From Pseudobutyrivibrio ruminis (GTDB lineage Bacteria > Bacillota > Clostridia > Lachnospirales > Lachnospiraceae), in assembly GCA_015057315.1 (NCBI GenBank), contig SVER01000001.1, positions 1 to 64,000 on the forward strand: a stretch of DNA of 64,000 nucleotides, in the 5' to 3' direction. Both the position numbers and the translations under genes were made by a program. The notes below the pieces were generated by a model, which saw only the letters and a list, made by a program, of their open reading frames with translations, did not search any database and was not told where the DNA came from. The stretch's first letter is position 1, and every line of letters starts with the position of its first letter. Shown here in pieces: positions 19,345 to 63,709 of this stretch.

Positions 19345-21204
19345 ATGAACAATACACAACTCTATCCGTTCGAACGGAATCGTTATTATCCAAAGAAGCG
19401 CCTTTCTAGCGCAGATTACACCGTAGAGCAAGACTATTTTAATAATAAGCGTAGGTTTTTGAATGGACTTATGTATGGCTCAGGCATTGTATGTGGCTTG
19501 GGAGTTTTTTCGTTGGATGATTTATCACTGCTTGTGGAAAGCGGTGTGGCTATTGACGGTCTGGGCCGTGAAATAGTAGTGGAATCCTCAGATGTAAAGA
19601 AGCTGTCTGCACTGCCAGGCTTTGACAAATTAAAGTCAGGGGATGTAAGCCTGTGTCTGCGCTATAAGGAAGAGCCGGTGCATAAGGTTTATTCTGTGGA
19701 TCAGGCTAATTCTGACCAGGAATTTCAATATAATCGAATAAGAGAAAGCTATGAATTATTCGTAATGGATTCTGAGGATATTCCAGTAATATACGAATTA
19801 GATACTGAATTTCTTACAAGTGGTAATTTGGTTGTAAGTGATAATTACACTGTCACTTGCTTTATTCCTACTGTTGTAAGCCGTGGTAGATTGGTAAAGG
19901 CTAGAGTTGTGGTTAAGAAAACCTCTGATGAGGACGTTAGACTGACTTACCATGGCATTTTACAGGTGCCTGTATTTGCAACAGAGGATGGTGGAAATGA
20001 AATCCTTATTGATATTAATGACGTATCACTAAATGACGGTGAGACAGTAACCTATGATTATTGGATGCAGGTTCAAAACACTGCAGCGGTAGAGTCTAAT
20101 ATTATTCTTAAAACAGGTTCAGCATCGGGATATGAAAATGATAAGGCTATACCTGTACCAACAAATGTAACTATAAAGGTGTTGCTTTCATCAACCTCTC
20201 CAAGAGAGCTTGTTAATAGAGAAATTGGCAGGCTTAATCTGGAAATGAAGAATATTGGCGGTCAGGAAGATTATATCAGGTTGGCTGATTTAAAGCTGGT
20301 AAGAACTGATAGTGCATATATTATTGAATCAGTAAATGATTTCAGTGCAAAGCATTATATATGCGCTCCAGTTCAGGATATGCAAAGAGCAGAATACATG
20401 GAGTATTTTGTTAGAGAGATGGGATTGAATGATGGAGGTACATCTAGTACAAAGTCACCATCGGAACATTATACGCTAAATACAGATGGGGTTCTTGGCG
20501 CTGCAGAGATTGCCACAGGAACACTGGAAATCCCACTTGGAGAAAATGCCAGAAAGGGCGAAATTTGTTATTCCAGTGAAATTATGCATGGACTTGGAAA
20601 GGGTAATGTATATGTGGAAGTGGGATATGAATATCTAAAAGAGGATGAAGCCATTGGTGCAAACACAAAGAATACTATCTATGGTAATCCTGGTATTTTT
20701 TCAAGCGATCAACGTACAGTAGTTAATGCTGAGACAGCAATAAAGGTGTTAAACGATAAGGGTAGCTTTATTGTTGGTGCAAGGCTACTTGAAAATGTAG
20801 ATTATCTTGTCCTTACCTACAGATGGGTTGCCATTAAATTCCCTAATGGAAATGACCTTGGACTTATTGATGATTATGAAGGCAAGAGCATTTCTCCAGA
20901 GACTCCTACTGTGAGAATGGGCACAAGAGAAACCCATTACTTTGGTGTGAGATTTAACAATATGAATAAGTGTAGTATCACTTATGAAATGACTGAGTCA
21001 GGAACAGGCGAGGTATCTGCTGATGGAGTATACACAGCTCCGGGTAAGCCAGGTGTTTACGAAATCAGAATCTATTGTACTGATATGCCTGTAATTTGCA
21101 CTTATGCTTATGCCATAGTTGAAAAGAAGGGCTATGAAGAATTAGAAGTGAAGGAAGGGGACCCCGTTCCTGAAAACAATCCACTTTCGAGGATAATTAA
21201 ATGA
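19345..21204 (+). CDS. CIS-locus leading protein with C-terminal Ig-like domain
   Basis: A 619-residue protein starting at the ATG at 19345, which has GGAGAGGG upstream. The N-terminal segment (RYYPKKRLSSADYTVEQDYFNNKRRFLNGLMYGSGIVCGLGV) is of a type found in proteins encoded in contractile-tail-like clusters. The middle is beta-rich and the C-terminal 90 residues have an Ig-like pattern (GEVSADGVYTAPGKPGVYEI). There is no signal peptide or membrane segment. It is the first gene of the CIS locus and overlaps the next by 4 bp. It may be a particle accessory or surface protein; its function is not established from sequence. Confidence 0.7.
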   Translation: MNNTQLYPFERNRYYPKKRLSSADYTVEQDYFNNKRRFLNGLMYGSGIVCGLGVFSLDDLSLLVESGVAIDGLGREIVVESSDVKKLSALPGFDKLKSGDVSLCLRYKEEPVHKVYSVDQANSDQEFQYNRIRESYELFVMDSEDIPVIYELDTEFLTSGNLVVSDNYTVTCFIPTVVSRGRLVKARVVVKKTSDEDVRLTYHGILQVPVFATEDGGNEILIDINDVSLNDGETVTYDYWMQVQNTAAVESNIILKTGSASGYENDKAIPVPTNVTIKVLLSSTSPRELVNREIGRLNLEMKNIGGQEDYIRLADLKLVRTDSAYIIESVNDFSAKHYICAPVQDMQRAEYMEYFVREMGLNDGGTSSTKSPSEHYTLNTDGVLGAAEIATGTLEIPLGENARKGEICYSSEIMHGLGKGNVYVEVGYEYLKEDEAIGANTKNTIYGNPGIFSSDQRTVVNAETAIKVLNDKGSFIVGARLLENVDYLVLTYRWVAIKFPNGNDLGLIDDYEGKSISPETPTVRMGTRETHYFGVRFNNMNKCSITYEMTESGTGEVSADGVYTAPGKPGVYEIRIYCTDMPVICTYAYAIVEKKGYEELEVKEGDPVPENNPLSRIIK

Positions 21205-22031
21205 TGCAGCTAAAGACCCTGTATACGGTTAAAAGAAGCTCAGTAGGTGAGATTAGAGTTTGCGAAGATATTGGTGGAAGAAATGCTAATCGATACACTG
21301 TCTGGGTAATATCTGACCATGAAAAGGTGAAAAGGCTTCTTACGGAATATGATAAGGTATCTGATTACATAAAAGAGCCTAATTATGTTGATATGTTTTC
21401 AGACCAGGGAAAGTTTTTTATAGTTTTTCCCTATGTTCCAGAAAGGCCTCTTGAGAAGTTTTACATGGGAAATGTTCTTACGCTTCATGAGTGCGAAACG
21501 ATATGTATGAACCTTATAATCGCATGTATGACTTCGAATATGCCTTGGTCTATCCTTTATTTGGTTCTTAAACAAAGGCAGATTCATTTGTCTAAGGACG
21601 GCTCGATATCTCTTAGTGTGGCAATTGATTTAGAGGAATTTGATGAGACTGCCGACGAAGGGAAGTGTACCTTAGAATGTGCGAAAATACTGCTTGATTT
21701 ATTAGAGCCAAAGGCTAATAAAAAGGCTAATAGCTATATTCTATTGACCAAAAAGGTAGAAAAGAGCACTTATTATCATTTCACAGAATTATATAAAGAT
21801 ATTAAGGCAGCCATGGAACCTGTGAAAAAAGGTGGAATAATGCTTAGATTAAGGGTTTTTGTTATGCGCAATAAAGATGAAATCTTTACCGCATTGCTTC
21901 GTATTAGTATTGTTTTGGCAATATTTGTAATACTTACGTTTCTTACCAATTTAATCTTCGGAGATGTGCCTTGGCTAAGAGTATTTATAAAAAGCTTTGA
22001 GCATATTGGACTTGAAGATTTACGGCAGTGA
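21201..22031 (+). CDS. Membrane-anchored pseudokinase-like protein
   Basis: A 276-residue protein. Residues about 1-205 follow the outline of a protein kinase fold (the segment QIHLSKDGSISLSVAIDLEEF resembles the NILL..DG..KLIDFG strand pair), but the VAIK lysine, HRD and DFG motifs cannot be found, so it is probably catalytically inactive. One membrane helix lies near 225-247, leaving a short tail outside. It is translationally coupled to the previous gene. A scaffold that recruits particle parts to the membrane would fit; the kinase relationship itself is tentative. Confidence 0.6.
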   Translation: MMQLKTLYTVKRSSVGEIRVCEDIGGRNANRYTVWVISDHEKVKRLLTEYDKVSDYIKEPNYVDMFSDQGKFFIVFPYVPERPLEKFYMGNVLTLHECETICMNLIIACMTSNMPWSILYLVLKQRQIHLSKDGSISLSVAIDLEEFDETADEGKCTLECAKILLDLLEPKANKKANSYILLTKKVEKSTYYHFTELYKDIKAAMEPVKKGGIMLRLRVFVMRNKDEIFTALLRISIVLAIFVILTFLTNLIFGDVPWLRVFIKSFEHIGLEDLRQ

Positions 22032-22054: not shown

Positions 22055-24526
22055 ATGATGAGAAGCAGAATTAAGAATGGCATTTTAGCTGCAGGAATAT
22101 GGTTAGTAGTGGTTATCAGTGCCAGCATTATGATATTTTTTATAACCATAAATTCCGCAACCTTTACCACATTTAATAAGGTGGCCAGGGATGATGAGTA
22201 TATCTATGTCACTGAGAACGGTACAAGAAATGGTCTTGTTTGGAAGTTAAGTGATGAAGGTAAGGTTGCAGGATTCTTTTCCACTAGTAAGCTTAAATAT
22301 CTAAGTGGATTTAAGGTTAGGGATATTGACTATGCAGATGGAAGCCTTAGATCTATTTTTGAGAGAAAAAAGAGTGAAAATGGAAGGCTAGTCAGCGAGT
22401 ATGTCATTGTAACATTTAATGATCAGATGAAGCCTGAATTTATTACTGTGCCGTTCAGGTTTGACAGGGAATTAACTTTGACCGGCTTCACTTCTACAGA
22501 AGACCGTTTTTATATGACAGCATTGCCATCAGAAAGAAAAGACATCTATGTATATCGTGTTTATTCTGCTGATATGCTCCAGCTTGAGGATAAAATGCCA
22601 TCTGATGAAGAAATTAATAATTGGGAAAAAAGCAAGATTAAGATTTCTACTATTGAAGAGGTAGGAGCAGAATCGGGGCGTTTGGTAGCAGAAGCTGAGT
22701 ATGACGAGTCTGAACTTCACATTCGTTACGACAATTCTTATCCTGAGTATTTTGCAATAGATACTCAGGCTGGTAATTTTTTTAATAGATTCACACCTTC
22801 ATTTTATCAGTATATAGAAATGTCAGGTCTTAACCTTTTTGTAGCTGTTGCTACAGCTGTAATAGGTGCAGATATATTTTTATTCCTTGGTATGCTTCTT
22901 GCAAACAGAAACAGAATTGTGTATGTGGTTGGCACATCTCAGATTATGGCCTTTTTAATATTAGGAGCCTTCTTTGGTTATCATGTCTATACCCTTGAAG
23001 AAGCAAGAGACAATGAATATTTCAGGTTTGCATCAGAAGATATATTAAGCACTTTTGATGGTTATGCATTTACGGATATAGGTTCATCAGAGATATATGT
23101 GTCCAGGGATTATTCTATAATTACAGAACGTCAAAATAGAATGATTTCAAAGGAAACCACCTATGATAATGAACCAGATGTTATAGCTGCTTTAGTAACA
23201 GATGATACAGGAGAGGTTGTACTAAGTGGTGACGGAAATAACCTGGCAACAGTGTCTATTATATATGGTTCAGATGCCAGAAATCTTGTAAAGGAAGCTT
23301 TGGCAACTGGAAGAAATGTAAAAGATAAAATAGTACTGGATGGAGAAAACGTATATCTGATAGCTACACCTTTATCCAAGGCTGGAATAAATGGATATGC
23401 AGGGCTTGTGGTTGCCAGATATGACACTATTGATAAATACTTCTTAAAAGAATACGGATTGCTATTGTTAGGATTTATACTTATCTATTTTATTGTAAGT
23501 ATAATAGTGGTTTTAATTCATATAGGGCAGGATAGAGATTTGAGTGCGTTAGCTAGTGCACTTGAAGGCCTGTCAAGGGGAGAAGAGGATATTGAAAAGC
23601 CATATTTAAGAGGTAGAGATACTAATTTTATGTGGAATTCAATATATGAAATTCAAAAAAACATACTTAATGTAAACCGTGCTAAGTTCCAGACCTATGA
23701 GGCTTATTACAGATTTGCCCCAAAGGGTGTTGAAAATATATTAGGCAAGCAGTCAATACAGGAAGTAAAGCTTGGGGATAATATAGATATAGAAGGGACT
23801 ATTGCCCATATAGCAACAGAAAAGCAACTTTCTGTGAAAAATCAAAACCAGGTATTGTTAGGTAGATTTTTGCAGATAATGTATAAAATCCGAGAAGAGT
23901 ACAATGGAATTTTTGTTTATCAGAATAATACATTGTCGGTTATTAAGATTTTGTTCCTTAACAATATCGATGATGCTGCTTCATTTGGAACTGAATTTTT
24001 GTTAAAGCTAAGAGAGGAAAGAAATGATGCTTTCCCTGAAACCACAGTAATACTTCATTATTCACCATTATCTTATGGTGTAGTAGGAACAGAAAAACAT
24101 TCTTCTATTTATATGGCATCTAACGATACTGATATTTTACAAAGCTATGCAGAATGGTTTAGGCAAAAGAAGGTGTCATTGATACTCACAGACACTGTGG
24201 TAAAGCATGAAAAGATAAGCTCAGAGCTTAGATATATAGGCTTCATTCTTCCAAATGAAGAAAATACAGATGAAAGAATAAAGCTATATGAAGCCTTAGA
24301 TGCAGAATCTGTTGCAGTACATACTAAAAGAATTGCTACTAAGGAACGATTTGAAAAGGCTTTGGATTTGTTCTACAAGCAGGATTATTATTTTGCAAGA
24401 AATACATTTACTGAAATATTGCGAGAATCTCCTGATGATGAGATTTCAAAGTGGTATTTGTTTGAATGTGAGAGATACTTAAATGAAGCAGCACCTGAAA
24501 ACTTTATTGGCGCGTTGCACATGTAG
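22055..24526 (+). CDS. Multi-pass membrane protein with degenerate class III cyclase domain
   Basis: An 823-residue protein with an N-terminal membrane helix (about 8-30), an extracytoplasmic beta-rich region (about 40-255), two further helices (about 262-320), a second extracytoplasmic Cache-like region (about 325-465), and another helix (about 467-490). A cytoplasmic domain begins YYRFAPKGVENILGKQSIQ EVKLGD, the typical entry into class III adenylate cyclase domains. Where active enzymes have the metal-binding FSD, this protein reads AHIA, so catalysis is unlikely. The C-terminal 60 residues look TPR-like. It probably acts as a sensor or docking protein for the particle. Confidence 0.72.
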   Translation: MMRSRIKNGILAAGIWLVVVISASIMIFFITINSATFTTFNKVARDDEYIYVTENGTRNGLVWKLSDEGKVAGFFSTSKLKYLSGFKVRDIDYADGSLRSIFERKKSENGRLVSEYVIVTFNDQMKPEFITVPFRFDRELTLTGFTSTEDRFYMTALPSERKDIYVYRVYSADMLQLEDKMPSDEEINNWEKSKIKISTIEEVGAESGRLVAEAEYDESELHIRYDNSYPEYFAIDTQAGNFFNRFTPSFYQYIEMSGLNLFVAVATAVIGADIFLFLGMLLANRNRIVYVVGTSQIMAFLILGAFFGYHVYTLEEARDNEYFRFASEDILSTFDGYAFTDIGSSEIYVSRDYSIITERQNRMISKETTYDNEPDVIAALVTDDTGEVVLSGDGNNLATVSIIYGSDARNLVKEALATGRNVKDKIVLDGENVYLIATPLSKAGINGYAGLVVARYDTIDKYFLKEYGLLLLGFILIYFIVSIIVVLIHIGQDRDLSALASALEGLSRGEEDIEKPYLRGRDTNFMWNSIYEIQKNILNVNRAKFQTYEAYYRFAPKGVENILGKQSIQEVKLGDNIDIEGTIAHIATEKQLSVKNQNQVLLGRFLQIMYKIREEYNGIFVYQNNTLSVIKILFLNNIDDAASFGTEFLLKLREERNDAFPETTVILHYSPLSYGVVGTEKHSSIYMASNDTDILQSYAEWFRQKKVSLILTDTVVKHEKISSELRYIGFILPNEENTDERIKLYEALDAESVAVHTKRIATKERFEKALDLFYKQDYYFARNTFTEILRESPDDEISKWYLFECERYLNEAAPENFIGALHM

Positions 24527-24550: not shown

Positions 24551-25789
24551 ATGAATCTGCTTCAAATATTGCTTCAAGCCTTAAAAACCAGAATACTGCC
24601 CCTTGTAACTAAGGTCAAGCTGTTTCTGTCTCCTAATTATATTAAGTCCAGATTAACAGAATTAATAAGAACCTTTTTTACAAAGGTTCTTAATATTAAG
24701 CCCAAGGATAAGAATGATTATTATCCAATAGGAAATTGGCTGGTTTCAAAAAAGCTTGCCTTTGCAATGGTTTTAATTGTGGGGGTATTGTCGTTAGTCT
24801 ATATTATCTTTTCATGGAATGCATTATTTCCAGGAAGAAGTAATGAAAGAATAAAAACATATAGCTACAATAATGTGCTTCTAAAATTTGCCAAGGGAAA
24901 TGTGCGAATCAAGGGAAAATCAGGATATTTGGCTTATGAGGGAGAGGTTTCAAAAGGCTCATGTAATGGAGTGGGAGAATTAAAAAATCCTGCTGGAAAT
25001 GTAGTGTATCAAGGAAATTTTAAGCAGTCTATGTATGAGGGAGAAGGAACTCAATACTATGATGACGGAAGCATACATTACAAGGGTGCATTTCATGAGA
25101 ATCTTTATTCCGGAACAGGCACACTGTATAGAACTAATGGTTCGATAGAATACGAGGGTAATTTCGTTTACAACAAAAAAGAAGGTCAGGGAATTTTGTA
25201 TGACATGGGACATAACGAAATATTTAACGGTATGTTTACAGAAGATGATATAAAATACTCTGATTTACTTGGAAAAAGCGCAACGGAGGTGGCAGGCTCC
25301 TATAAAGGAGAGAGAACTTTATACAATACCAAAGATGAGCATATTAGATATATGCCTGACATAGATGCTTTGACAGTGGAGTTTGCAGATGAGGATTCCA
25401 TAGATACAGAGGGAGAGGTTGCAGCAGTATACGTGCTTAAAGATTCTTTTAATACAGCCAATGGCCCAGTAAAAAGCTTCAAGGATTTATCTGATGTTTT
25501 GGGACAACCTATCTATGTAGGTTCTTCTTATGGTACATTTTCTGAGCTTCTTGCTATTACGAAGATAAGTGATGAAAATGAGAGAGTTTATTTTAGCGGT
25601 TATCCAGAGATTGATTCAACAGCTGTATATAACGAATATATTGATGTGACAGGCTATGAAAATCAGTATGAAGTATATTTGCATACATATAGACGAGATG
25701 GTCTTGTGTATACATTTGTTACTGAACCAGGTTTGGAAACCTTTTATTTTTACTTTGTGCAGGATGAGGCTTTAGCTGATGTTGGGTAG
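24551..25789 (+). CDS. Membrane-anchored MORN-repeat protein
   Basis: A 412-residue protein with a basic N-terminal cytoplasmic part (about 1-70), one membrane helix (about 75-95), then five or so MORN repeats (about 125-225, with motifs such as YEGEVSKGSCNGVGEL, YQGNFKQSMYEGEGT and YEGNFVYNKKEGQGIL). A C-terminal beta-rich domain follows. MORN repeats generally mediate membrane or protein contact. A GGAG site precedes the ATG; the 3' end overlaps the next gene by 11 bp. Its position within the envelope module suggests a structural role at the outer face of the membrane. Confidence 0.85.
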   Translation: MNLLQILLQALKTRILPLVTKVKLFLSPNYIKSRLTELIRTFFTKVLNIKPKDKNDYYPIGNWLVSKKLAFAMVLIVGVLSLVYIIFSWNALFPGRSNERIKTYSYNNVLLKFAKGNVRIKGKSGYLAYEGEVSKGSCNGVGELKNPAGNVVYQGNFKQSMYEGEGTQYYDDGSIHYKGAFHENLYSGTGTLYRTNGSIEYEGNFVYNKKEGQGILYDMGHNEIFNGMFTEDDIKYSDLLGKSATEVAGSYKGERTLYNTKDEHIRYMPDIDALTVEFADEDSIDTEGEVAAVYVLKDSFNTANGPVKSFKDLSDVLGQPIYVGSSYGTFSELLAITKISDENERVYFSGYPEIDSTAVYNEYIDVTGYENQYEVYLHTYRRDGLVYTFVTEPGLETFYFYFVQDEALADVG

Positions 25790-28700
25790 TGGATTTAGTA
25801 GAAAAAAGCATCTTATACGATTCATATCTTTAATTCTTGTATGTAGCCTAACTCTTTCTGGCATGGCTGTAAGTAGGTACGATAGAGGGCTTGGGCAAGT
25901 TTATGCTGCCCAAAAGTTAAAGCTTTCTGCGGCCAAAAAGCTGGCAGTTGCCAATTCAGACAAAATTGATGCACTTGATACCAAAATAGAATCAAAGCAG
26001 GCTGAAAGACAGTCTGCAATCAAGGCGTTGGAAGAAAAGCAAAGGGATATGGCTACCTTTAGATGGTCACCACTTCTTAGCTTCAAGTTTCCAACCACTC
26101 CAAGTGAGGCGGAGGCATTTGAATTTCAGTTTAAACCAGTACAGCTTGAATACAGTATTAAGACTATAAAGCATCAGCTTGATGATGAAAAGCTAACAGA
26201 ATATGAAAAGGTTAGTAATCTTTATATAGATATTATTACCTATACTGCGGAGGTAGCCTTTTTAGAGGAAAGAATAGCAAATCTGGATACTGCTATTGGA
26301 AAGAACAAAGCCAAGGTATTGGAGGGAACAGCAACTAAGGGCCAGGTTGAGCTTCAGGAAAAGAAGCTAAAAAAGATGCGCTCTGATATTGCAACACAGA
26401 AAAAAAAGCTTCTAAGTGCTAAGGAAAAGCTTGGAAAGGAAGTAGGCTTTTCTGTTACCTCTGGATATACATTTGACGAAGAATTTGTGGTAACAAACAT
26501 GAGTAGAGACTGTGTGGAAAAGCTACAACAGGTTGCTGTTGATAACGACCAGACAGTTTTTGAGGCAAGGCAGGAAATGCAGCTTGCCGGATTAAATCTA
26601 CAAATTAATTATAACCTTATGAGTCAGAAATATGGTGGGGATATCAGCATGATTCAAGGTTATATTAGTCAGCTTCAAGACGGTTCTGGACAGACTATAA
26701 ATAAGAGAGCCTTCAAGAAGGATTATGATGCTTTTCTAAAAAAGATAGATTCTCCATGGGCTGGCTACTGGAAGATTCTTTTTTTTAAGATTCCAAAGGA
26801 ATGGTTAAAGGGCAGCCAGGATGGTGTTAGATATATTGAGGATGATCCTTATGTGTTGTATTCTGCAGCCTTAGATTATCAGGCTGCTTGCAAGGATTAC
26901 AATAATGCATGTGACGAATTAAAGCAAAATGTAGCTGACTATTTTGATAGTCTAATGGATGCCAGAAGTGCATATATATCAGCCAAGGATGATATGAAAA
27001 AAGAAAAAGCTGATTTAATGGAGGCTGAATCAAAAAATGCAATGGGCACCATGACCTTAGAAGAATTTGAAATGGTAAGTGAGGAATATGAAGCTGCCAG
27101 AACCCAATTAAAGGATTCGCTTTCTACATATTCCAAATCATTATATTCCTTTGACAGAATCACCTGCGGTGGAGCCAGTGAATATATTATGGCAGAATCA
27201 TTATCTGCCCAGACAGGTGGGGTTGGTTTTGGAACAGCAGAAAATAAGAAAAAGAATCCAATTGATGAAGTAACACCTGTTTTGGCAAGTGGAGCAACAT
27301 ATAGCATACGCTCTATTGTTGATACCCAGGAGTTTGTATTATATGTGGATATTCCTGATGGATTTGAACCTCAGGTTACTCATTTTGAACTATGGGCTGA
27401 TAACAGACAGATAGGACAAAGGGTTCCTGTTACAGGCTCTATCAGGCATTTAAAGATTGCTGTAAGTGACGTTAATTCTATTTTTGTAAGACTATATAAT
27501 GGGTCAGATTTTGTAGATGATTGTGCCATCGACCCGGATACCAGCTACGGACCGCTTAATATTACTTCATCCTACAAGGTAGATGAGCTAGTAAATTATC
27601 CTGTAATTGGTACATACACTATAGAGGACGATACAACAACGGATATGATAAGGGTCAGATTTGCCTTTGATCAGACTGCTGTAAAGGACGTATATCCTAA
27701 GGGTGCTGATGTGGCCTTCTATAATCTGGCTACGGAAAAAAGCCTGTATCTGTTTTCTAATGATTTGATAGCTCAAGACCAGGCCTTTAGTTACATGGCT
27801 TTTATAAAAAGGGATGTAGGTAAGCTTACCCTTAGATTATTTGATAAGAATGGAGATTATATTGGTGGAGCCAAATTAGATGGTGATAATGGCAACATTT
27901 TTGTAGATAAATCTATAACCGATGAAGATATGCATAAGGTGGCCGCAAGGCAAATCCTTACGGAGATAAAGGGTAAATCTCTTAACGATGAATTAAAGAG
28001 AGTTACTGATCTTTACAATTCTGCAAAAGGAAATTCTGCAGACTCTTCAACTGCAGAATATTATAAAAAGCATATTGAGGAAATAAAAAATGAGTTAAAG
28101 ACAATAAGCGCAAATATTTCAGATGAAGAGATAGAGGAAGCTTTATCTACATATAAGGATGAAATAGATAAAAGAGTTAGTGAAAACTCAAATAAAGCTG
28201 ATACTACAGATTCTGAAAAAGTTGCTGAAGAAATTTCTGCAAAGAATGAAATAATCAAGGATGCAGCTATTAGATTTGTTAAAGAAAAAAGGGATAAAGA
28301 CAGAAGGGCAGCAATAGCTAAAACTATTAGCGATTATGAGAATGAGCTAATGAAGGCACAGCGTCAATATGCTGCCGCAGCTGATGAAAAAACTAAAGCA
28401 GATATTGAACAAAAAGTCAGGGATACACAAGCCAAGATAATATTAGAGAAGGATAAGCTAAAGGAAATAGATAGTAGCGAAGTAACTGAGGATGAGATTA
28501 ATGCAGCTTTGATTGAGCATGGTGATGAAATATACTCCTCAGTGGTTGATAAGCTTAATTCGGCTATGCTTTTTGGAACGCCAACAGGAAAATGGGCTGT
28601 CCAGTATTTGCAGGCACATGGTGTTGCTGATTCAGAGAAAAATGTAAGAATGATTGTTTCAGCAGCATCAAAAATAGAAGACTATGAAAAGAAGCTTGAA

Positions 28701-32410: not shown

Positions 32411-32432
32411 TTTGTTTATAGGTGCTATGGGG

Positions 32433-35135: not shown

Positions 35136-35138
35136 GTT

Positions 35139-45138: not shown

Positions 45139-45153
45139 TAAAAGGTGAACTGT

Positions 45154-47991: not shown

Positions 47992-48001
47992 GAGAATGGC
48001 T

Positions 48002-51482: not shown

Positions 51483-51494
51483 TAGGGGACGAGT

Positions 51495-55051: not shown

Positions 55052-55698
55052 TTACATTTTCACACGTATATAAGTCTTATGAGAATACGAATACAACAGT
55101 ATTTACGGATTTTTCGGCGGAAATTGATAACGGAGAATTTGTAATTGTAAAAGGCGCAAATGGAAGTGGTAAAACTACGCTTATTAATATGCTGCTTTTA
55201 GATGAGGCATGTGATGAGGGAAGAATCTATGTATTTGAAAAGGATATATCGAAAATACGAAGTAGAGAGATTCCTTTATATAGAAGACAGCTGGGAGTGA
55301 TTTTTCAGGATTTTAGATTGCTTAAGGAAAAAACAGTTTATGACAACATTTTATTGGCGAGAATGGTGATTGGGGCACCTAGAAAAGATTCTAAAATGCT
55401 TATTTGGAATATGGCAAAGCTCCTTGGAATTTCTGATTTGCTAAACAGATATCCATCAGAGCTTTCAGGGGGACAACAACAGAAGGTGTGCCTTGCAAGG
55501 GCCTTGATTAATAGTCCTAAAATACTTATTTGCGATGAGCCTACAGCCAACTTGGATCCAGAGGCTACGGAGGATTTGAAAAATCTGTTGGAGTTAATTC
55601 ATGCACAGGGAATTACGATTTTGTTATCTACCCATGATGCGATTTTGTATGATTGCAAGGATTCTAGAATTATAGAGATTAATAATAAGGTTTGTTAG
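55048..55698 (+). CDS. FtsE-like ABC ATPase
   Basis: A 216-residue ATPase with Walker A GANGSGKTT (from residue 36), Q-loop Gln88, signature LSGGQQQ (140-146) and Walker B ILICDEPTANLDP (from 160). Size and pattern (FQDFRLL after the Q-loop, YDNILLAR) are closest to FtsE, which with FtsX activates cell-wall hydrolases at the membrane. No FtsX-like or other permease gene is found in the window. It could borrow the chromosomal FtsX or act on one of the membrane proteins of the locus. It is translationally coupled to the STAS gene. Confidence 0.88.
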   Translation: MITFSHVYKSYENTNTTVFTDFSAEIDNGEFVIVKGANGSGKTTLINMLLLDEACDEGRIYVFEKDISKIRSREIPLYRRQLGVIFQDFRLLKEKTVYDNILLARMVIGAPRKDSKMLIWNMAKLLGISDLLNRYPSELSGGQQQKVCLARALINSPKILICDEPTANLDPEATEDLKNLLELIHAQGITILLSTHDAILYDCKDSRIIEINNKVC

Positions 55699-55722: not shown

Positions 55723-58020
55723 ATGAGCGATGCATATGATAATATTTTGGAACTCCATAAACTATTACCTGATGAAGAAAATGAAGTAGTGAACCAGGCA
55801 CAATTGGAAGGTAATAATAAGCAGGAGATAAGAAATTTTCCAAGAGAATATGATGCTGATTATGAGATGGATTTTGCAAGGAAAATATATAACCGGGGTG
55901 ACGTACAGATGGCTGGGAAAATAGCCCTTGCAAAGGTTTCGCATCTTTTAATCAGCTATAACAGAATGATGGATAGCAGAGCCAGGCGTGACGCAAATAT
56001 AATAGAAGCACAAGTAAAAGCTGAAGATCTTTTTTCAAAAGAAATAAAAGATATTTTTGAAAATTATGGTATCGCTGAAGAAAACTACCAAGCTGTAGTG
56101 ATAACTGTTGAACAAGAATTAGCCGAAGAAGAGGAGAAAAAGAAAGAAAAGGAAAAACAGCAGGACGAAAAGGAAGAGAAAGACGAAAAAAAAGAGAAAG
56201 AGGAAAAAGAAGAAAAGGAAAATAAGCAGGAAGAATATGATATAGATGAGCTTTCGGAAGAAGAGAAACAAAAAAGAGCAGTGAAGGATTATAAGAAAGC
56301 TAAAGTGATATACAACAATGAACTAATAAATATTTATAGTGGAGCTGAGGCTGAATATAAAAGAGATATTGCTTCAAATACAAATCTGGACAAATCTGGT
56401 GGAATATTATCAACATTGATGCTTGGAGGCAATGCACTTGGTTCAGAAGGCTATAGTTTAAAATCAGGGGACGCACTTGATCTTATGGCAGGGGGAATGT
56501 ATATAAAAAAAGTGGCTTCCAGTAAAGGTACTTTGTTTGAACAAATGGCACTTTTAGATAATGCAGTAAATACTAATGGAATTGATTTAAATAAAAAGGA
56601 AGATGATAAAGTTGAAGATGGTGAAGTTAAAGATGATGAAGGCGAAGATATAGGTAAATTATCTTTTGATGCCAATATAGGCTCTTCAATAAAGGGGGCA
56701 AAATATTCTCTTAACGATATTTTTTTTAAGGGAAGTAAGGAGGATATAGAAGATATTAATGCCTCTAGTTATAAGCAAGAAACTATGGAAGGAATCATGG
56801 CAACTGAAAAGATTTCTTTAGATTTTAAGGCAATAGAAAAAGAAAAAGCATTTAGGGTAGTAAATAATATTGAAGCCGATGAAAAGCTGTCAATCAAGGA
56901 AGCTAATGATAATAGAAAGGGAATAAGTGAGTTAAATGGAAAAAAACAAAATATAAGTTTTTATGATGAAGAAACCACTAAAATGCTTGTAGAAGATGTT
57001 GATGTTCTAAAACCTGTTCCTGGCCTTTTTGGAAAAACTAGTAATTCTTCAAGGGAGTTAATTAGATCAAAAAGACAATTATGGGAGCAAAGAATGAAGA
57101 AAATCAGAACCATTAGAAGCGCAACTAATTTGGAACTGATAGATTATAAGGCTAATAAAAAAGATGTTGACTTCAAGTCTATTCCTAGTCTAAGCGAAGA
57201 GCAGCTAAAGAAACAAAAGGATGCATTAAAGGAAAATGATAAGTCTGTTAAAAATATGATCTTTGCATATAAGACTATGGGCGCATCACCAAAGGATTTA
57301 TATCTATTTAGGCTTGCTATCATTGCATATATGATTCCAGCTGGTAAAAAGACATTGAAAGAGATATTAACAGAATCTGCTGAAGCAGGTTACTTAGGAA
57401 ATGAGGATTTGTCATCCTATGAAACTATGTACGCAACATTTTATGATGCACCTATTGAAGGCGAAGTCTATGTTAATAACTATGAGAAAGAGTCTAGCAA
57501 GCTATACAGATATAAGAATGTAAATCTTCAGGCTGAAAATACTGAGAGCAAAGATGAAAAAGAAAAACGCCTGGCTGAAAAATGGAAAGTAAATGACGAA
57601 ATTGTAGAGAGTGAAGAGGAGGATAAAGAAGAAGTAGCAGAAATTGAAATAGCACAAAATCAAAGTGAAGAAATAAATCTAGGTGAAGAGGGTAAGCTAG
57701 GGGAAAAAAATGAGGTTAATGTAGATAGGCAGGAACAGGGAAATGAAATAAATGCAGATGTAAAACCACAAGATAAGCAGAAACACCCTGTTGAAACAAT
57801 CATAAAAAAATTTGTAAGTAATGGTCAAAGGCAAAATGATGAACCGGTAAAAATATTCAAGGATTTAAGTGTGATAATTACTGAAAAAAGACTGGAGTTT
57901 GGATTGACTGAAGATGATATTTCATTATTAGAAGGACATTTAAAGGATGAAAGCAAAATGTTTAAAAATGGTTTGCTTAGGATAATAAGAAAAGTTGTTG
58001 AAGAAAATAAAGAAAAATAA
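55723..58020 (+). CDS. Large charged coiled-coil protein of unknown function
   Basis: A 765-residue cytoplasmic protein with no recognised family. Residues about 135-190 are an almost pure Glu/Lys tract with predicted coiled coil. Other parts are helical, and the region about 590-690 is again acidic. A Gly-rich patch near 225-265 (LMLGGNALGSEGYSL, DLMAGGMYIKK) and a helical C-terminal domain (about 685-765) are the only ordered-looking pieces. AAGGAGAAGG precedes the ATG. It closes the plus-strand run before the minus-strand kinase. Cargo, effector or assembly scaffold are open possibilities. Confidence 0.68.
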   Translation: MSDAYDNILELHKLLPDEENEVVNQAQLEGNNKQEIRNFPREYDADYEMDFARKIYNRGDVQMAGKIALAKVSHLLISYNRMMDSRARRDANIIEAQVKAEDLFSKEIKDIFENYGIAEENYQAVVITVEQELAEEEEKKKEKEKQQDEKEEKDEKKEKEEKEEKENKQEEYDIDELSEEEKQKRAVKDYKKAKVIYNNELINIYSGAEAEYKRDIASNTNLDKSGGILSTLMLGGNALGSEGYSLKSGDALDLMAGGMYIKKVASSKGTLFEQMALLDNAVNTNGIDLNKKEDDKVEDGEVKDDEGEDIGKLSFDANIGSSIKGAKYSLNDIFFKGSKEDIEDINASSYKQETMEGIMATEKISLDFKAIEKEKAFRVVNNIEADEKLSIKEANDNRKGISELNGKKQNISFYDEETTKMLVEDVDVLKPVPGLFGKTSNSSRELIRSKRQLWEQRMKKIRTIRSATNLELIDYKANKKDVDFKSIPSLSEEQLKKQKDALKENDKSVKNMIFAYKTMGASPKDLYLFRLAIIAYMIPAGKKTLKEILTESAEAGYLGNEDLSSYETMYATFYDAPIEGEVYVNNYEKESSKLYRYKNVNLQAENTESKDEKEKRLAEKWKVNDEIVESEEEDKEEVAEIEIAQNQSEEINLGEEGKLGEKNEVNVDRQEQGNEINADVKPQDKQKHPVETIIKKFVSNGQRQNDEPVKIFKDLSVIITEKRLEFGLTEDDISLLEGHLKDESKMFKNGLLRIIRKVVEENKEK

Positions 58021-58068: not shown

Positions 58069-58977
58069 CTATGTGGTTGGAAGCTGGATATATATTCCCA
58101 TTCCGGCACCGGAATTACTCTTTGCATAAATGGTTCCACCATAGTAGGTGACAATAGCTTTTGCCTGGAATAGACCAAGACCATTACCACTGATTCGATT
58201 AGAACCCTGGTAGTTAAGTTCAAAAATATGCTTGGTTTCCTCTGGGGCAAGGCCATCGCCATTATCCTTACATACAACAAATATATCATCAGCAACGGAA
58301 GATATGGTAATAATAAGGCTACCACGACGATTCATATATTTGATAGAGTTATCAATAATGTTTCTAAACAAAATGCGAATTAGATTTGCATCAGCCTTTA
58401 CTAAAAGGGATTCTTCTGTTGAAGAAATAGTTAAGGATAAACCAGCCTGAATAGCCTCATCGTGAAATTCCTTAGCTACAGTTTTTGCAACATCAATTAT
58501 ATTGATAGTTGTGGACATGGATTTTTCAGGTAAGTAAGAAGGTAGGACACTTAGTTCTAATTCATCATCAGTGTTATTTGATTTAGTTTCAAGTGCTGCC
58601 TTTTTAGCATCATCAACTGCATGATTTAGCTCAGCTATTTTTTCTTTGAGCTTAACAATTTCCATGTTGTCAGAAACGATTTGTTCCTCAAGAGAAGTGG
58701 TTGAATCAATTTTTTCCTTAAGCTGGTTTTTTAAGGATTCAGTTTCCTCTCGCCATTGAGTTTTTATATTTTGTATTCTCTCAACATAATCTTCAATTTC
58801 CTCTTCAGAGGTATCTTTCTTTAGGTTGGAAAATAAAGCAAAAAGCATAAGCGTAATGCTATGCAGTATGAAGAAAACTAAGAAAACTGTTGAGCTTGCA
58901 GAAAAAAATGAATATAACGTGATAACGTAAAAAATCAATGCCGAAACAAGTAAGAATCTTTTGAAAGTATCAAACAT
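58069..58977 (-). CDS. Sensor histidine kinase-like protein lacking a clear H box
   Basis: A 302-residue protein with two membrane helices at the N-terminus (about 7-45) with almost no outside loop, then a long coiled coil (about 55-125). A HATPase domain follows with N box (NIIDNSIKYMNR), G1 (CKDNGDGLAP) and G2 (GNGLGLFQAKAIV). The usual phospho-acceptor motif (SHELRTP) before the ATPase part is absent, so autophosphorylation on a typical His is doubtful. It is the only minus-strand gene in the CIS locus and has no regulator gene next to it. It may be a regulatory ATP-binding sensor for the particle. Confidence 0.8.
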   Translation of the reverse strand: MFDTFKRFLLVSALIFYVITLYSFFSASSTVFLVFFILHSITLMLFALFSNLKKDTSEEEIEDYVERIQNIKTQWREETESLKNQLKEKIDSTTSLEEQIVSDNMEIVKLKEKIAELNHAVDDAKKAALETKSNNTDDELELSVLPSYLPEKSMSTTINIIDVAKTVAKEFHDEAIQAGLSLTISSTEESLLVKADANLIRILFRNIIDNSIKYMNRRGSLIITISSVADDIFVVCKDNGDGLAPEETKHIFELNYQGSNRISGNGLGLFQAKAIVTYYGGTIYAKSNSGAGMGIYIQLPTT

Positions 58978-59328: not shown

Positions 59329-61674
59329 GTGGCAGATAATAATATTTTTTCAAGCTATGATGAATATATGAAGAATATTTTTGATTGTGTTAACAGATGC
59401 CTTAGTGTTTATCTGGAAAACATGAAATCCACCTTTTCTAATGGTCAGGGTGGGTTTAAAAATGTTCTTTATCCCGATTTGGAAATAGCTGCGGACGCAG
59501 CAGCAGAGCATGTTAGTAGGTTTCAAAGCGAATATAGTAGCATAGATGATGACTATGATGAAGCTTTTGATGAGAAAGTCGATGATGAAGACTACGATGA
59601 GGATGAAGACGACTATGATGAAGATGATGAAGAATTGTTTTCGTTACTTGGAGTCTTTAGCGCATCTAATGTGGATTTTGACGACCAAAAGTCTATAGCT
59701 GAAGACATAAATGTTACAGAGCGTCTTATTGAAATACAGGAAAAGGCCAGGCTTACAGCAGAGGCTGGTATAGATATGCCATTTTATAATCTATGCAAAA
59801 AAATGGAATTTGACCCATTCACTATTTTTTGTTTTGCCTGTGGAATCCTTTCATCAACACAGACAGATTATGCTGGCATATTCCAGATTGTAAATGAAAA
59901 TGGAAACCTGATGAATCCTACTATTGAATCAGCAGGACGTCTTTATTACGGTCAAAAATATTCTATCACTGGTGCCTACGGGGATATGTCTATTTGCTTA
60001 GAGCAGCTACTACCTATTTTGGATCTTAGGGTAGTGCCATCTATGCCATTTTCAACAGTAGTTTCACCAGACAAGCGAATTATTGATTACCTGTTTGGTA
60101 GAGACCGTATGAAAATAGATGAAAACTATATTAGATTTATGAGAATGCTTACAAAGGATGGAGAAAAGCTTGATGAAATTCTTTGTAATGAGAATGTGCT
60201 AAAAGCTATGAAAATAGCCTATAAGGATGGTAGTAAGCTATTCTCTTATCATGGAGATGAAGGCTCAGGACGAAAGTTTTTTATTAGAAAGTTCTGTGAA
60301 GAAAATGGTATGCGTGCCATCACTGTAAACTGTAAAAAGCTGTTTGTTTATGATTATTCCTATGTAGAAAAGGCAATCTGGGCTGTTACCAGAGAATGTA
60401 TTCTTACTGATGCCTGTTGTGTACTTGAAGAGCTTCAGTATAGAGAAGAGGAGAAGGAAAAGTTTTTTGGTTATATGGATCTTTTCTTCACCAAGCTTAC
60501 GGAAAAAGGAATTATCGTATTTGCCAATTCCAAGGAAACTATTAATTTTAAAGAGATTACAAAAGAGCAGATTACACTGCTTGAGCTGCCGGCTCCTGCT
60601 ATTGATGGAAGAATTGCCTGCTGGAATTACTATTCCAAGGGCTATGAATTTGGTGAGGATGTTGATTTCTTTGAGATGGCAACCAAGTTTTTGTTTACCC
60701 CTGGCAAGATTAAAGATGCCATTACCTATGGCAAGTCCCTTGCGGTAATGGACCAGATGAAGGAAATCAATAGAGCTACTCTTTTTAAAAGCTGTAATGC
60801 CCAAATGTCATCTGAGCTTTCTGCCAAGGCTACCCGTGTGGAGGCTAAATTTGGATTTGACGATATTGTAATGAACAAAGACCAAAGAGAGCAGATTAGC
60901 CATGCTATAGAACAAATGAATAACAGAAAACAGGTCTATGAGGATTGGAATTACATGAAAAAATATCCTTATGGTAGAGGCCTGACAGTTTTACTATATG
61001 GAGCTCCTGGTACTGGTAAATCAATGATGGCTCAGGTTCTTGCACATGAGCTTAATCTGGAGCTATACAGGGTAGATATTTCTAAGGTTGTAGATAAGTA
61101 TGTTGGTGAAACAGAAAAATCTCTGTCTATGATTTTTAGAGAAGCAAAAAAGTGTAATGTAGTTTTGTTCTTTGATGAGTGCGATACCATCTTTGCAAAA
61201 AGAGCAGATGATGGTGGCTCTAATCAGGCATCTGCCAATAATAAGACAGCCCTTCTGTTGCAGGAAATGGAAGCTTATGACGGTGTATGTGTACTGGCAA
61301 CTAACTATAAGCATAATATAGACCCTGCATTCTTTAGAAGAATGAAATATATTGTTGAATTCCAGTTCCCTAACGAGGACACCAGAGAGATGCTTTGGAA
61401 AACTACTGTGCCTAAGACAACACCACTTGGGGATGATGTCGATTTTAGATTTATAGCCGAGAAGTTTGAGTTTGCCGGTGGTAATATCAAAAACTGTGTT
61501 TTAAATGCAGCATTCCTTGCTGCCGAGGATAAAACAGCAGATGGTAAGGTATGGATGCGCCATTACCTAAAGGCTATTCAGTACGAATTTGTAAAAGTAG
61601 GACGTGTATTTACCAGAGCCGATTTTGAACCATACGCTGATATGATTTTTGGAGAGGTGGAGGATGAATACTAA
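59329..61674 (+). CDS. AAA+ ATPase with degenerate first and active second module
   Basis: A 781-residue cytoplasmic ATPase of the Afp15-like group found in nearly all eCIS loci. It starts at GTG with AAGGAGG upstream. After an acidic tract (about 70-105, mostly Asp/Glu/Tyr), a first AAA-like module has a corrupted P-loop (GDEGSGRK, from 309). The C-terminal module is intact: GAPGTGKS (558-565), FFDECD, sensor ATNYKHNIDPAFFRRM. The pore-loop region reads YRVDISKVVDKYVGETEKSL. Family members are needed for assembly of functional particles. The stop overlaps the next AAA+ gene. Confidence 0.9.
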   Translation: MADNNIFSSYDEYMKNIFDCVNRCLSVYLENMKSTFSNGQGGFKNVLYPDLEIAADAAAEHVSRFQSEYSSIDDDYDEAFDEKVDDEDYDEDEDDYDEDDEELFSLLGVFSASNVDFDDQKSIAEDINVTERLIEIQEKARLTAEAGIDMPFYNLCKKMEFDPFTIFCFACGILSSTQTDYAGIFQIVNENGNLMNPTIESAGRLYYGQKYSITGAYGDMSICLEQLLPILDLRVVPSMPFSTVVSPDKRIIDYLFGRDRMKIDENYIRFMRMLTKDGEKLDEILCNENVLKAMKIAYKDGSKLFSYHGDEGSGRKFFIRKFCEENGMRAITVNCKKLFVYDYSYVEKAIWAVTRECILTDACCVLEELQYREEEKEKFFGYMDLFFTKLTEKGIIVFANSKETINFKEITKEQITLLELPAPAIDGRIACWNYYSKGYEFGEDVDFFEMATKFLFTPGKIKDAITYGKSLAVMDQMKEINRATLFKSCNAQMSSELSAKATRVEAKFGFDDIVMNKDQREQISHAIEQMNNRKQVYEDWNYMKKYPYGRGLTVLLYGAPGTGKSMMAQVLAHELNLELYRVDISKVVDKYVGETEKSLSMIFREAKKCNVVLFFDECDTIFAKRADDGGSNQASANNKTALLLQEMEAYDGVCVLATNYKHNIDPAFFRRMKYIVEFQFPNEDTREMLWKTTVPKTTPLGDDVDFRFIAEKFEFAGGNIKNCVLNAAFLAAEDKTADGKVWMRHYLKAIQYEFVKVGRVFTRADFEPYADMIFGEVEDEY

Positions 61675-63709
61675 AGAACAGACATTGGCTGGCTTCTTTA
61701 GGGATAAAGAGGAAGAAGCTGAGTATGCCCTTTCATTTATAAATGCCCTAACAGTGGCCTCTGATAGTGAACCCAAAATTTGTAGAGAGCTTTTTTCTGA
61801 TTTTATTACAAGATGTGAGCTTACCATAAAAAGTAAAAAGGATTATCCTCTTTCAAAAATACTGTGGGTAGGTATGCTAGAGCCCATTGAATGGCTGGCT
61901 TTTTTGCTGGCATGGTTTTCTGCGGTTAACGGGAGCATTGAATTAGCACTTTCAAAAAGTACCTTAAGCCCAGACAAATCCTCAGTGCCAACTGCCAGAC
62001 TATGCCTGGATTTAGCTTCTATGTTTCTTGAAGATGATGAAATAGATTCAAAAATATTATTTGATAAGGATTCATTTTTGAATAGAGTACTGTTTGAACA
62101 AAATGTGGGGCAATCCAGTAGTGAATTAAACACTCCTTTAGTTTTAAGACATGAAGCATTGCTCTATATCCAGGGCAATGGGGAGACTTTAGGGGATATT
62201 TCTTTATGCGCAAATTATTTATGCTCTAATGATTCTAATTGTAATATCCATAAATCTGAAGAAAAAGAACTGTTAAATATCTTTTTAAGCAGTGGCTCTT
62301 CAGATGTTGATTCCGTTGTTTTTTTAGTTGGGGAAAAAGGAATAGGAAAGCGCTTTTTAGTTAAGCGCCTGCTTAATCATATTCAAAAAAAGGCACTTAG
62401 CGTAGATGTAAGCAGATTGCTATCCTTTTCAGAGAAAAATAGAAACGCTATTCTTTCTGATATAGCAGTAAAGCTGGTTTTAAATAATTGTATTTTATAT
62501 TTATATAATCTGCCATCTGATAGAAGCCGGTTTTCAGAAGTAAGGTACATGTTTGCTCTTTTGCAAAGCTATTTTTCGGTAATAATTGTAGGAACAGAAA
62601 ATAAACCTACAAAGGAAATAGAAGCCATGGTAACGGGGAAATGTTATCAGGTGCAGCTAACTGAACCAGGCTGTGAAGATATGAAATTAATCTGGCAGGA
62701 GGCTACTAATTATTATGGTAGCACCTTTGCTGCTGATATAGATGTGGATGAGCTGGTATCTAAATACTTTCTTAATGCAGGTAGGATATTTGACAGTGTT
62801 TTAGGGGCATTGCCATTTGCTAAAGATAAGCAGATTGACAAGAAGTCCATAGAAAAAAGCATTCGTTCAATATGTGCAGCCTCATTTGGAGATATTGCAA
62901 AGCGAATAACAAGTCCATTTACATGGGATGATTTAAAAATAGAAGGAGACAGTAAAAAGCTACTTGAACTGGCATGCAATAGGGTTAAATGCAAAAGCAG
63001 GGTAAATGATGAGTTTGGCTTTGGGCCTAAGCTTCCTTATGGCAAAGGCCTTGCAATTGTACTTTACGGCCCACCTGGAACTGGCAAGACAATGGCAGCA
63101 TCAGTGCTTGCCAATGAACTGTCACTGGATTTGTACAGGATAGATTTATCCCAGATATCCAGCAAATATATTGGCGAAACAGAAAAGAACCTAGGGGCAT
63201 TGTTTGAGGCTGCAAGAAATTCCAATGGGATACTGTTTTTTGATGAGGCAGACTCATTGTTTTCAAAACGTACCCAAGTGGCTTCATCCAATGATAAGCA
63301 TGCCAATGCAGAAACAGCATATCTTTTGCAGAAAATAGAAGAGTATCCGGGAGTATCAATTCTTGCTACAAATAATCTGCAGAATTTTGATGTGGCGTTC
63401 AAACGAAGAATGACTTACATCATACCAATAGGTATGCCGGATGAAAAGACAAGAGAAGAATTGTGGAAAGGGGCATTCCCAGACAAGGCACCTCTTGCAG
63501 CAGATGTAAACTTTAGTATTTTAGCTGAATCAATAGAAATAAGTGGAAGCAGTATAAAAAATTCGGCTATAGAGGCAGCCTATAGGGCTGCTGCCGAAAA
63601 TAGAAAAATAACCATGAATGATATTCTTGATGCTGTTGATTTGGAATGTATGAAAAATGGCATGATAGGTGTGAAAAATGAAGTAATGTCTAAATTAGTA
63701 ACAGGATAA
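61664..63709 (+). CDS. Second AAA+ ATPase, paralogue of the first
   Basis: A 681-residue paralogue of the preceding ATPase without the acidic tract. The ATG at 61664 has GGTGGAGG upstream and overlaps the previous gene by 11 bp. The first module keeps GEKGIGKR (from 223), again altered from a classic P-loop. The second is complete: GPPGTGKT (469-476), FFDEADSLFSKR, ATNNLQNFDVAFKRRM. The tight coupling of two unequal copies suggests a hetero-oligomeric ring. This is the last gene of the CIS locus. Confidence 0.9.
   Translation: MNTKEQTLAGFFRDKEEEAEYALSFINALTVASDSEPKICRELFSDFITRCELTIKSKKDYPLSKILWVGMLEPIEWLAFLLAWFSAVNGSIELALSKSTLSPDKSSVPTARLCLDLASMFLEDDEIDSKILFDKDSFLNRVLFEQNVGQSSSELNTPLVLRHEALLYIQGNGETLGDISLCANYLCSNDSNCNIHKSEEKELLNIFLSSGSSDVDSVVFLVGEKGIGKRFLVKRLLNHIQKKALSVDVSRLLSFSEKNRNAILSDIAVKLVLNNCILYLYNLPSDRSRFSEVRYMFALLQSYFSVIIVGTENKPTKEIEAMVTGKCYQVQLTEPGCEDMKLIWQEATNYYGSTFAADIDVDELVSKYFLNAGRIFDSVLGALPFAKDKQIDKKSIEKSIRSICAASFGDIAKRITSPFTWDDLKIEGDSKKLLELACNRVKCKSRVNDEFGFGPKLPYGKGLAIVLYGPPGTGKTMAASVLANELSLDLYRIDLSQISSKYIGETEKNLGALFEAARNSNGILFFDEADSLFSKRTQVASSNDKHANAETAYLLQKIEEYPGVSILATNNLQNFDVAFKRRMTYIIPIGMPDEKTREELWKGAFPDKAPLAADVNFSILAESIEISGSSIKNSAIEAAYRAAAENRKITMNDILDAVDLECMKNGMIGVKNEVMSKLVTG

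Follow-up and report, generated by a model that had tools for sequence, protein, structure and literature searches.

Pseudobutyrivibrio ruminis carries a contractile injection system (CIS) that is encoded together with an envelope module of its own. The system occupies positions 19345-63709 (44 kb) of the stretch analysed here, the first 64,000 bases of the 162-kb contig SVER01000001.1 (hereafter the window), from a genome of 3.42 Mb that is 94.5% complete and has a single sheath gene. An earlier note, made from the bare sequence, had described the region in these terms, and the assignment was confirmed at its coordinates. In our reading, which we consider fairly probable, the system is a membrane-docked injector of the extracellular CIS (eCIS) lineage that resembles a type VI secretion system (T6SS), fires outward from a walled one-membrane bacterium, and has its own wall-spanning complex. 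Computation covered the genes present and their association with the CIS, the TolC fold of one module protein, the predicted topology and a box common to two promoters; docking, firing direction and target are suggested by the gene content.

The envelope module (19345-35135) consists of the following genes. Transmembrane (TM) segments were called with a simple hydropathy scan, and signal peptides were judged by eye.

19345..21204, + strand: CIS13-family baseplate/tail-fibre-like protein (NCBIfam CIS13_fam)
21201..22031, + strand: cytoplasmic domain, one TM segment near the C-terminus (residues 235-253) and a short tail (the adaptor)
22055..24526, + strand: multi-TM protein with HAMP and a degenerate class III cyclase-like domain (the HAMP-pseudocyclase)
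24551..25789, + strand: one-TM MORN protein, MORN repeats predicted outside (Pfam MORN 1e-10; TM 69-87)
25779..28907, + strand: secreted TolC/OEP-family protein with beta domains and a C-terminal coiled coil
28916..32410, + strand: large secreted paralogue A (1164 residues), signal peptide by eye, hydrophobic N-terminus
32412..35135, + strand: large secreted paralogue B, secB (907 residues)

The block is thus 15.8 kb long rather than 14 kb, as had been stated, and its first gene encodes a structural protein. The CIS13_fam match of this protein covers residues 17-153 (E 2e-22, 79.9 bits against a cut-off of 370). The N-terminal domain is conserved, and the start codon (ATG at 19345) is consistent with the relatives. 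A C-terminal TM segment was not found by hydropathy, which gave one marginal peak at residues 55-73 in the N-terminal domain, and the best match of the CIS13 profile in the PDB reached only E 0.068. The adaptor has six K/R residues before and three after its TM segment, which fits an inside N-terminus. A pseudokinase reading of the adaptor, taken over from the earlier note, could not be confirmed by sequence, with a family profile that matched only a kinase N-lobe in the PDB (E 0.17) and nothing useful in Pfam. A likeness of the adaptor to the T7SS protein EssB, considered on grounds of architecture, is not claimed. The MORN protein, found as predicted with one TM segment, has a K/R-rich N-terminus that is predicted inside, with a charge difference (six before, four after) that is less clear than in the adaptor.

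The identification of a pseudocyclase held at the level of the family. The family profile matches CyaB (4e-7) and HAMP structures, and Pfam detects HAMP in 4/10 and Guanylate_cyc in 2/10 members; the window copy alone has no match at 0.1. Class III nucleotide cyclases have two metal-binding aspartates. In a hand alignment to CyaB, these positions are occupied by Ala and Ser in the window copy, which therefore lacks this feature of class III cyclases.

The association of the module with the CIS was assessed in a family sample of 200 genomes and a class sample of 391 genomes, which partly overlaps the former. The sheath is present in 21 of the family genomes. Full-length TolC-like proteins were found in 11/200, all of them sheath-positive, and five other genomes have short matches only (2e-7 to 6e-4), two of which are sheath-positive (G016 and G046). 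Of the 21 sheath genomes, 20 have the membrane-type MORN protein, as judged from the span of the profile match (19 with a strong match, G006 with a fragment at a contig edge); it was found in none of the 179 others. In G046 and in 19 sheath-negative genomes, the MORN profile matches at repeat positions only (from position 108 of the profile onward). The sheath and MORN genes of G054 and G076 lie on different contigs, so that adjacency could not be called. Relatives of secB are present in 12/200 genomes, in 11 cases beside the sheath gene; the twelfth, a weak match (7.5e-5) in G014, is in a sheath-negative genome. In the class sample, 17 of 391 genomes have a sheath match at E<=1e-60 (7 of the 17 full-length), and the five genomes with the TolC-like protein (E<=1e-10) all belong to these 17.

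Sheath distances correlate with those of the TolC-like protein (n=32, r 0.74), the MORN protein (n=32, r 0.94), CIS13 (n=13, r 0.74) and the cap (n=51, r 0.87); none of 2000 permutations gave values as high, and whole-genome ancestry contributes to these correlations. Envelope genes occurring independently of the sheath in most relatives would, according to the earlier note, have spoken against its proposal, and this was not observed. In the sampled genomes, the full-length TolC-like protein and the membrane-type MORN protein occur only together with it. G153, from the same genus as the window, has no match to the sheath, TolC-like or MORN profiles, indicating patchy presence in the genus.

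The TolC-like assignment rests on family profiles and on a predicted fold. Pfam OEP is detected in 25 of the 27 members of the family (best 4.6e-16); the window copy itself has no match at 0.1, so that the Pfam support is that of the family. In the PDB, 13 TolC-type chains are matched by the family profile (E 1.3e-4 to 9.6e-4); the best stretch lies in a helical region, and the matches are therefore weak on their own. In the AlphaFold model (pLDDT 76.8, pTM 0.46), the order short helix, long helix, gap, long helix, short helix occurs twice over, followed by beta-rich stretches. The C-terminal ~327 residues, mostly helix, are present in the window copy and not in 26 aligned relatives. A Foldseek search with the model gave 43 PDB matches at E<=1e-3 (best E 5.5e-9, target TM-scores 0.50-0.63). 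By title, 37 of these are outer-membrane efflux channels; for the remaining six, the title says no more than 'membrane protein from Pseudomonas aeruginosa'. At the first membrane-strand site of TolC, where model confidence is low, 27/27 members have 17 residues, which is short compared with the usual length of TolC membrane strands; the second gap measures 35-59 residues. The family thus shows the two-fold helical repeat and the fold of TolC/OEP proteins, and lacks recognisable beta-barrel strands and an outer-membrane host. Omp85 gave no match in the window genome, in a search that was positive in 7 of 14 control genomes. In view of the TolC fold and the missing Omp85 match, this is very probably a TolC-fold protein that functions in a cell with no outer membrane. 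Together with the restriction of the full-length TolC-like and membrane-type MORN genes to sheath-positive genomes in the samples, the lack of an Omp85 match supports a CIS with a dedicated envelope module.

The two large secreted proteins that follow are homologous (E 1e-32), as had been recognised. The AlphaFold model of secB has fair confidence (pLDDT 76.8, pTM 0.60) and no fold match in the PDB at E<=1e-3. Profile matches of the secreted family to the PDB (best 3.5e-6) were not used; they fall mostly at positions 500-700, involve unrelated proteins, and were taken as chance matches of low-complexity or helical sequence. Cu_amine_oxidN1 matches 10 of 37 members of the family (best 2e-8), at the C-terminus in two of three members inspected; the third has no match.

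The module and the structural genes are preceded by the same sequence, in agreement with the claim that one promoter motif serves both blocks:

19260..19276, + strand: box TGTTGCACTTTTGTTGC, direct repeat with an 11-bp period, 5' of the CIS13 gene
35138..35154, + strand: box TGTTGCACTTTTGTTGC, identical copy, 5' of the cap gene

The 17-bp box is exact at both places and precedes both transcription units of the window. Two matches at <=3 mismatches were not obtained in any of 100 shuffles, and elsewhere in the 3.42-Mb genome there is no copy at 0-1 mismatch and one at 2 mismatches. Direct repeats with an 11-bp period are the layout of sites for OmpR/PhoB-type regulators, and a regulator of this type is encoded nearby, at 17272. 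In the relative G180, an analogous GTGAC repeat is present at both promoters; it was spotted by eye before being scored against shuffles (1/2000 and 2/1000), and has no 6-mer in common between the two sites. A longest-common-substring test in nine genomes was above the null for the window only. In six of eight clade-A genomes tested (the clades are defined below), the cap gene starts -28 to 41 bases after the preceding module gene, which suggests one operon there. Sigma-70 promoter-like sites were not used, since they are not in excess over shuffles (53 against 72.9 in 15400-35300, and 69 against 72.8 in 44600-64000). Terminator-like sites exceed shuffles (22 against 10.2, and 16 against 9.7), and a strong one lies at 58054-58020 on the minus strand, 3' of a HATPase gene.

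Relatives of the locus fall into two clades, with sheaths that are 61-77% identical in clade A and 52-55% in clade B. Gene maps were drawn for 20 relatives, 11 of clade A and nine of clade B. The ORF (open reading frame) picker hid some of their genes, probably PAAR in G006 and G174, and MORN in G149, where it was recovered by profile search. Ten of the 11 clade-A relatives have the order CIS13, adaptor, usually cyclase, MORN, TolC, sec, cap, PAAR, sheath. Among them, G006 is visible only from TolC onward, the cap gene of G085 and G104 follows Tail_P2_I, no cyclase gene was seen in G085, G104 and G176, and no PAAR gene in G085. The eleventh, G046, has a lone sheath. In six of the nine clade-B maps, the sheath comes first, CIS13 and MORN follow Tail_P2_I, and there is no TolC or sec gene. 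G086, also of clade B, has the clade-A order minus TolC and sec, and G076 and G054 are too short to tell.

A broader set of named loci comprises the best 80 of 583, of which 44 belong to clade A by identity. Module genes were counted in the 28 clade-A loci with more than 9 kb upstream, where TolC-like and sec genes are present in 27 each, MORN in 24, and the cyclase in 22. The misses of TolC and MORN are limited by the available flank; L144 and L149 have no cyclase gene. Clade A takes in records from Oscillibacter, Agathobaculum and Family XIII. In clade B, six of 31 genomes searched have the TolC-like protein, namely Fusibacter, a Candidatus Epulonipiscium metagenome-assembled genome (MAG) and four Paenibacillus; a seventh match is short. 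According to the gene maps, the gene lies inside the CIS cluster in Fusibacter, the Candidatus Epulonipiscium MAG and Paenibacillus tyrfis. By coordinates, it is about 22 kb from the sheath gene in P. elgii and P. silviterrae. The sheath tree (quick method, midpoint root) separates the clades with an SH-aLRT support of 100, and places the long-branched Faecalicatena sheath L180, counted as B, in A.

The structural genes follow the module. Pfam was run on 40 window proteins, a few small ORFs not included.

35201..35800, + strand: cap (Pvc16_N; Pfam 1.8e-26)
35840..36583, + strand: conserved protein, weak carboxypeptidase-regulatory-like match
36596..36985, + strand: DUF4280/PAAR-like protein (Pfam 8.9e-30)
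37023..38753, + strand: contractile sheath (Pfam 9.6e-19 and 2e-15)
38788..39288, + strand: inner tube, gp19-like (Pfam 8.1e-32)
39412..39989, + strand: tail assembly chaperone-like gene and DUF6760 gene
40005..41966, + strand: Cis5-like tube adaptor with a long repeat tail (weak TIGR02241, 5e-4; CIS5_fam, 2e-3)
41971..44220, + strand: putative tape-measure protein, from position and variable length in relatives
44239..45990, + strand: two CIS_tube-family (Cis7-like) proteins (Pfam 2e-13, 3e-14)
45991..47136, + strand: baseplate hub (weak Pfam hub-family matches)
47164..47991, + strand: spike (Phage_base_V; Pfam 2e-20)
47996..48466, + strand: gp25 sheath initiator (Pfam 2e-19)
48432..53618, + strand: two baseplate wedge proteins, the second from 51495 (Baseplate_J, 4e-12)
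53631..54737, + strand: Tail_P2_I (Pfam 9e-12)
54749..55698, + strand: STAS protein and FtsE-like ABC ATPase (Pfam 2e-14, 1e-33)
55723..58020, + strand: accessory gene in the cargo slot, 765 residues, candidate effector
58069..58977, - strand: two-TM HATPase, histidine-kinase-like (Pfam 1e-18; hydropathy)
59329..63709, + strand: two AAA+ ATPase genes (Pfam 1e-28, 4e-32)

Sheath, tube, gp25, spike, Baseplate_J, Tail_P2_I, Pvc16-type cap and AAA+ families were all detected by Pfam, which places the particle in the eCIS lineage, as had been proposed. Most of the parts that the note had called directly recognisable, including the second J-like protein, are so. The hub match is weak, and the first J-like wedge protein (48432) has no Pfam match and only weak PHROG wedge matches (4.5e-5). 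In line with the original description, no capsid, terminase, TssJ, TssL or TssM family was found among the 40 proteins, and the system is not a canonical T6SS. A prophage reading was rejected on the absence of capsid and terminase families among the scanned proteins and on the linkage data. The STAS and FtsE-like genes, which the note had placed inside the structural operon, were confirmed by Pfam. Co-directionality does not hold throughout; the HATPase gene is on the minus strand within the last 5.7 kb. No permease gene was recognised alongside the FtsE-like gene, and STAS is present in six of seven clade-A relatives whose map extends that far. The tail of the Cis5-like gene (40717-41382) contains two 108-bp tandem arrays (3.1 and 3.2 copies) that encode WEF-containing repeats.

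The protein encoded at 55723 may be an effector. It has no Pfam or NCBIfam match at 0.05 and one weak match to a PHROG of unknown function. The gene was not seen in the 20 mapped relatives and lies within the lowest-GC 2-kb block of the window. The corresponding slot of G129 (L090:3440-9068) encodes two Ntox11 proteins (Pfam 2.6e-50 and 8.8e-43), each followed by a GNAT-domain protein, and in that of G180 (L087) a GNAT-like protein follows each of two large paralogues; G080 and G041 have no such toxin/GNAT-type pair in the slot. The pairs of G129 and G180 suggest that the GNAT-type proteins are partners of CIS cargo, involved in immunity, loading or modification.

Upstream of the module, on the same strand, are genes that may regulate the CIS:

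from 16233, + strand: signal-anchored SH3-like protein (by eye)
from 16853 and from 18086, + strand: two lipoprotein-like genes (by eye)
17272-18081, + strand: response regulator with OmpR/PhoB-type C-terminal domain (Pfam Response_reg 4e-19, Trans_reg_C 5e-6)
18572-19255, + strand: LytS-type histidine kinase without predicted TM (Pfam His_kinase 2e-19)

A histidine kinase and a response regulator are likewise found directly 5' of CIS13 in G180, and regulation of the CIS by the two-component genes in 16233..19255 appears plausible. Further upstream, a ~680-base long inverted repeat (15406-16085) has an Rfam TwoAYGGAY match (RF01731, 60.3 bits, 15667-15825 minus) near its apex. Seven other long copies in the genome (~400-620 bases, 89-94% identical) identify it as a dispersed element of the type of miniature inverted-repeat transposable elements.

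How might such a system work? The particle would assemble in the cytoplasm. CIS13, which lacks the C-terminal TM helix of its Anabaena counterpart, would leave docking to two proteins with one TM segment each, the adaptor (21201) and the MORN protein (24551). Above the docking site, the TolC-like protein and the secreted paralogues could form a wall-spanning scaffold. The HAMP-pseudocyclase and the upstream two-component system might sense the envelope and gate expression or firing. Contraction would then drive the tube through membrane and wall, and deliver the cargo encoded between the ABC and AAA genes. Antibacterial toxins have been described for Firmicutes eCIS, from a Paenibacillus and a Ruminiclostridium, in operons without an afp13 fibre gene (PMC8213781; here and below, statements on cited papers refer to the excerpts of them that were available), and support a bacterial target.

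Several observations weigh against this interpretation. Anchoring of the particle is deduced from genes, and the kinase likeness of the adaptor found no confirmation. The two-promoter box was detected in only the window and G180 among the nine genomes (common 5-mer, period 8-12). Two sheath genes have no adjoining module, in G046 and in Faecalicatena orotica (L180), and L114 has a TolC-like gene without sec. The TolC-like protein is absent from 25 of the 31 clade-B genomes searched, and in Paenibacillus sp. MAHUQ-63 its gene is several tens of kb from the sheath gene; it is therefore not needed for every CIS of the lineage. A canonical TolC trimer is about 3.5 nm wide inside, and a CIS tube measures about 8-9 nm, so that a canonical bore would be too narrow. 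A simple channel is thus less likely than a scaffold that spans the wall or an oligomer of larger diameter, and whole particles are unlikely to be exported through the TolC-like protein. Lastly, a 2026 catalogue reads the fibre genes of Bacillota CIS as pointing to extracellular use, and reports that a different particle is targeted to a human cell line when it carries the receptor-binding domain of a Paenibacillus fibre (PMC12923769). As separate observations on the two isolated sheath genes, no CIS genes were recognised around that of G046 (L010), and only a chaperone-like gene lies beside that of L180. The suggestion that the particle is anchored to the wall or exported through it thus survives in part. 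A dedicated envelope module accompanies the CIS in a host without an Omp85 match, the TolC and secreted components are missing from many clade-B relatives, and export through the wall is doubtful.

Alternatively, the particles could be free in the cytoplasm, as in Streptomyces, and the module could sense envelope damage and recruit them to fire, which would kill the producer or release particles. A precedent is the Streptomyces protein CisA, a bitopic membrane protein that firing requires and that is absent from the purified particle (PMC12237407), and sensor-like parts are present in the HAMP-pseudocyclase, the adjoining two-component system and the second HATPase. However, sensing would need less than a protein of TolC fold plus the secreted proteins (907 and 1164 residues in the window), which are co-inherited in clade A, and the toxin-domain cargo of a relative suggests attack, which makes this explanation rather unlikely. 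The wall-side proteins might instead open or remodel the wall, so that free eCIS particles could exit a living or dying cell. Such a role would suit the eCIS-type cap, DUF4280 and AAA+ genes and the fibre genes reported for Bacillota CIS (PMC12923769), but no wall hydrolase or holin family was found among the module proteins scanned, and CIS13 is the only fibre-type family matched in the window; we regard a release apparatus as improbable.

Finally, a TolC-like secretion or surface locus could merely have come to lie beside the CIS. The window has two transcription units, and TolC and sec are absent in many clade-B genomes, as would be expected of chance neighbours. This is contradicted by the co-occurrence in the family and class samples, the box common to both promoters and the close spacing of the cap gene behind the module in most clade-A genomes tested, and a coincidence is very improbable. 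A more specific version of the main reading, a Gram-positive counterpart of the T6SS in which intact cells use an eCIS injector, a membrane-docking pair and a barrel-less scaffold derived from TolC against neighbours in gut or rumen, is put forward tentatively, with a chance somewhat short of even.

The findings bear on the question of whether, in walled bacteria with one membrane, CIS remain free until the cell lyses or can act from intact cells. The module provides a conserved set of candidate docking and wall-crossing parts, in carriers that include Oscillibacter valericigenes An890 and Paenibacillus elgii. For the TolC field, the linkage of a TolC-family protein to a CIS in a bacterium that has no outer membrane is unexpected. 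We found no description of a CIS with a TolC-like/MORN envelope module of this kind in the open-licence literature, and the available excerpts of PMC12210884, PMC10598620, PMC9230969, PMC12961389 and PMC8213781 do not describe one. Relatives that associate with membranes are already known, namely the thylakoid-anchored CIS (tCIS) of Anabaena, the haloarchaeal T6SS and the Streptomyces CIS with CisA; the new result is the linkage to the TolC-like/MORN module. For CIS of Chloroflexota and Deinococcota, the mode of action is described as probably cytoplasmic (PMC12998442).

With the tCIS, the window system shares a Cis13-type protein on the baseplate and, if our reading is correct, membrane anchoring. 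In Anabaena, Cis13 is bound to the baseplate and inserts a C-terminal helix into the membrane (PMC8894136). In contrast, the window CIS13 has no C-terminal TM segment and is followed by separate TM proteins, and the membrane is a different one. The haloarchaeal CIS is membrane-bound and contact-dependent, and its nearest Cis11 relatives are in Bacillota (PMC11566945). The Halogeometricum borinquense system is likewise an eCIS-lineage particle in a one-membrane cell, shown there as membrane-bound and known here from genes. Its putative anchor is a single six-TM protein encoded upstream of the core cluster, and TolC-like, MORN and large secreted proteins are not mentioned in the excerpts of that paper. 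The proteins encoded in 19318-35135 have <=4 hydropathy peaks each, and include no six-TM anchor of the haloarchaeal type as judged by topology, homology not having been compared. The Streptomyces CIS, compared by its described architecture, also has a Gram-positive host and a TM protein encoded with the CIS. CisA differs in that it is a single accessory membrane protein, whose outer domain resembles solute-binding proteins, and the excerpts describe no wall-side complex.

Like the TssJLM-anchored T6SS, the window encodes a putative membrane-side complex together with a contractile sheath; unlike it, the window lacks TssJ, TssL and TssM families among the scanned proteins, and the host lacks an Omp85 match. 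With TolC and other outer membrane efflux proteins, the TolC-like family has in common the two-fold repeat of long and short helices, the Pfam OEP match in most members and the structural similarity detected by Foldseek. It is set apart from them by a short first strand site, added beta domains, a host without Omp85, and the association with a CIS.

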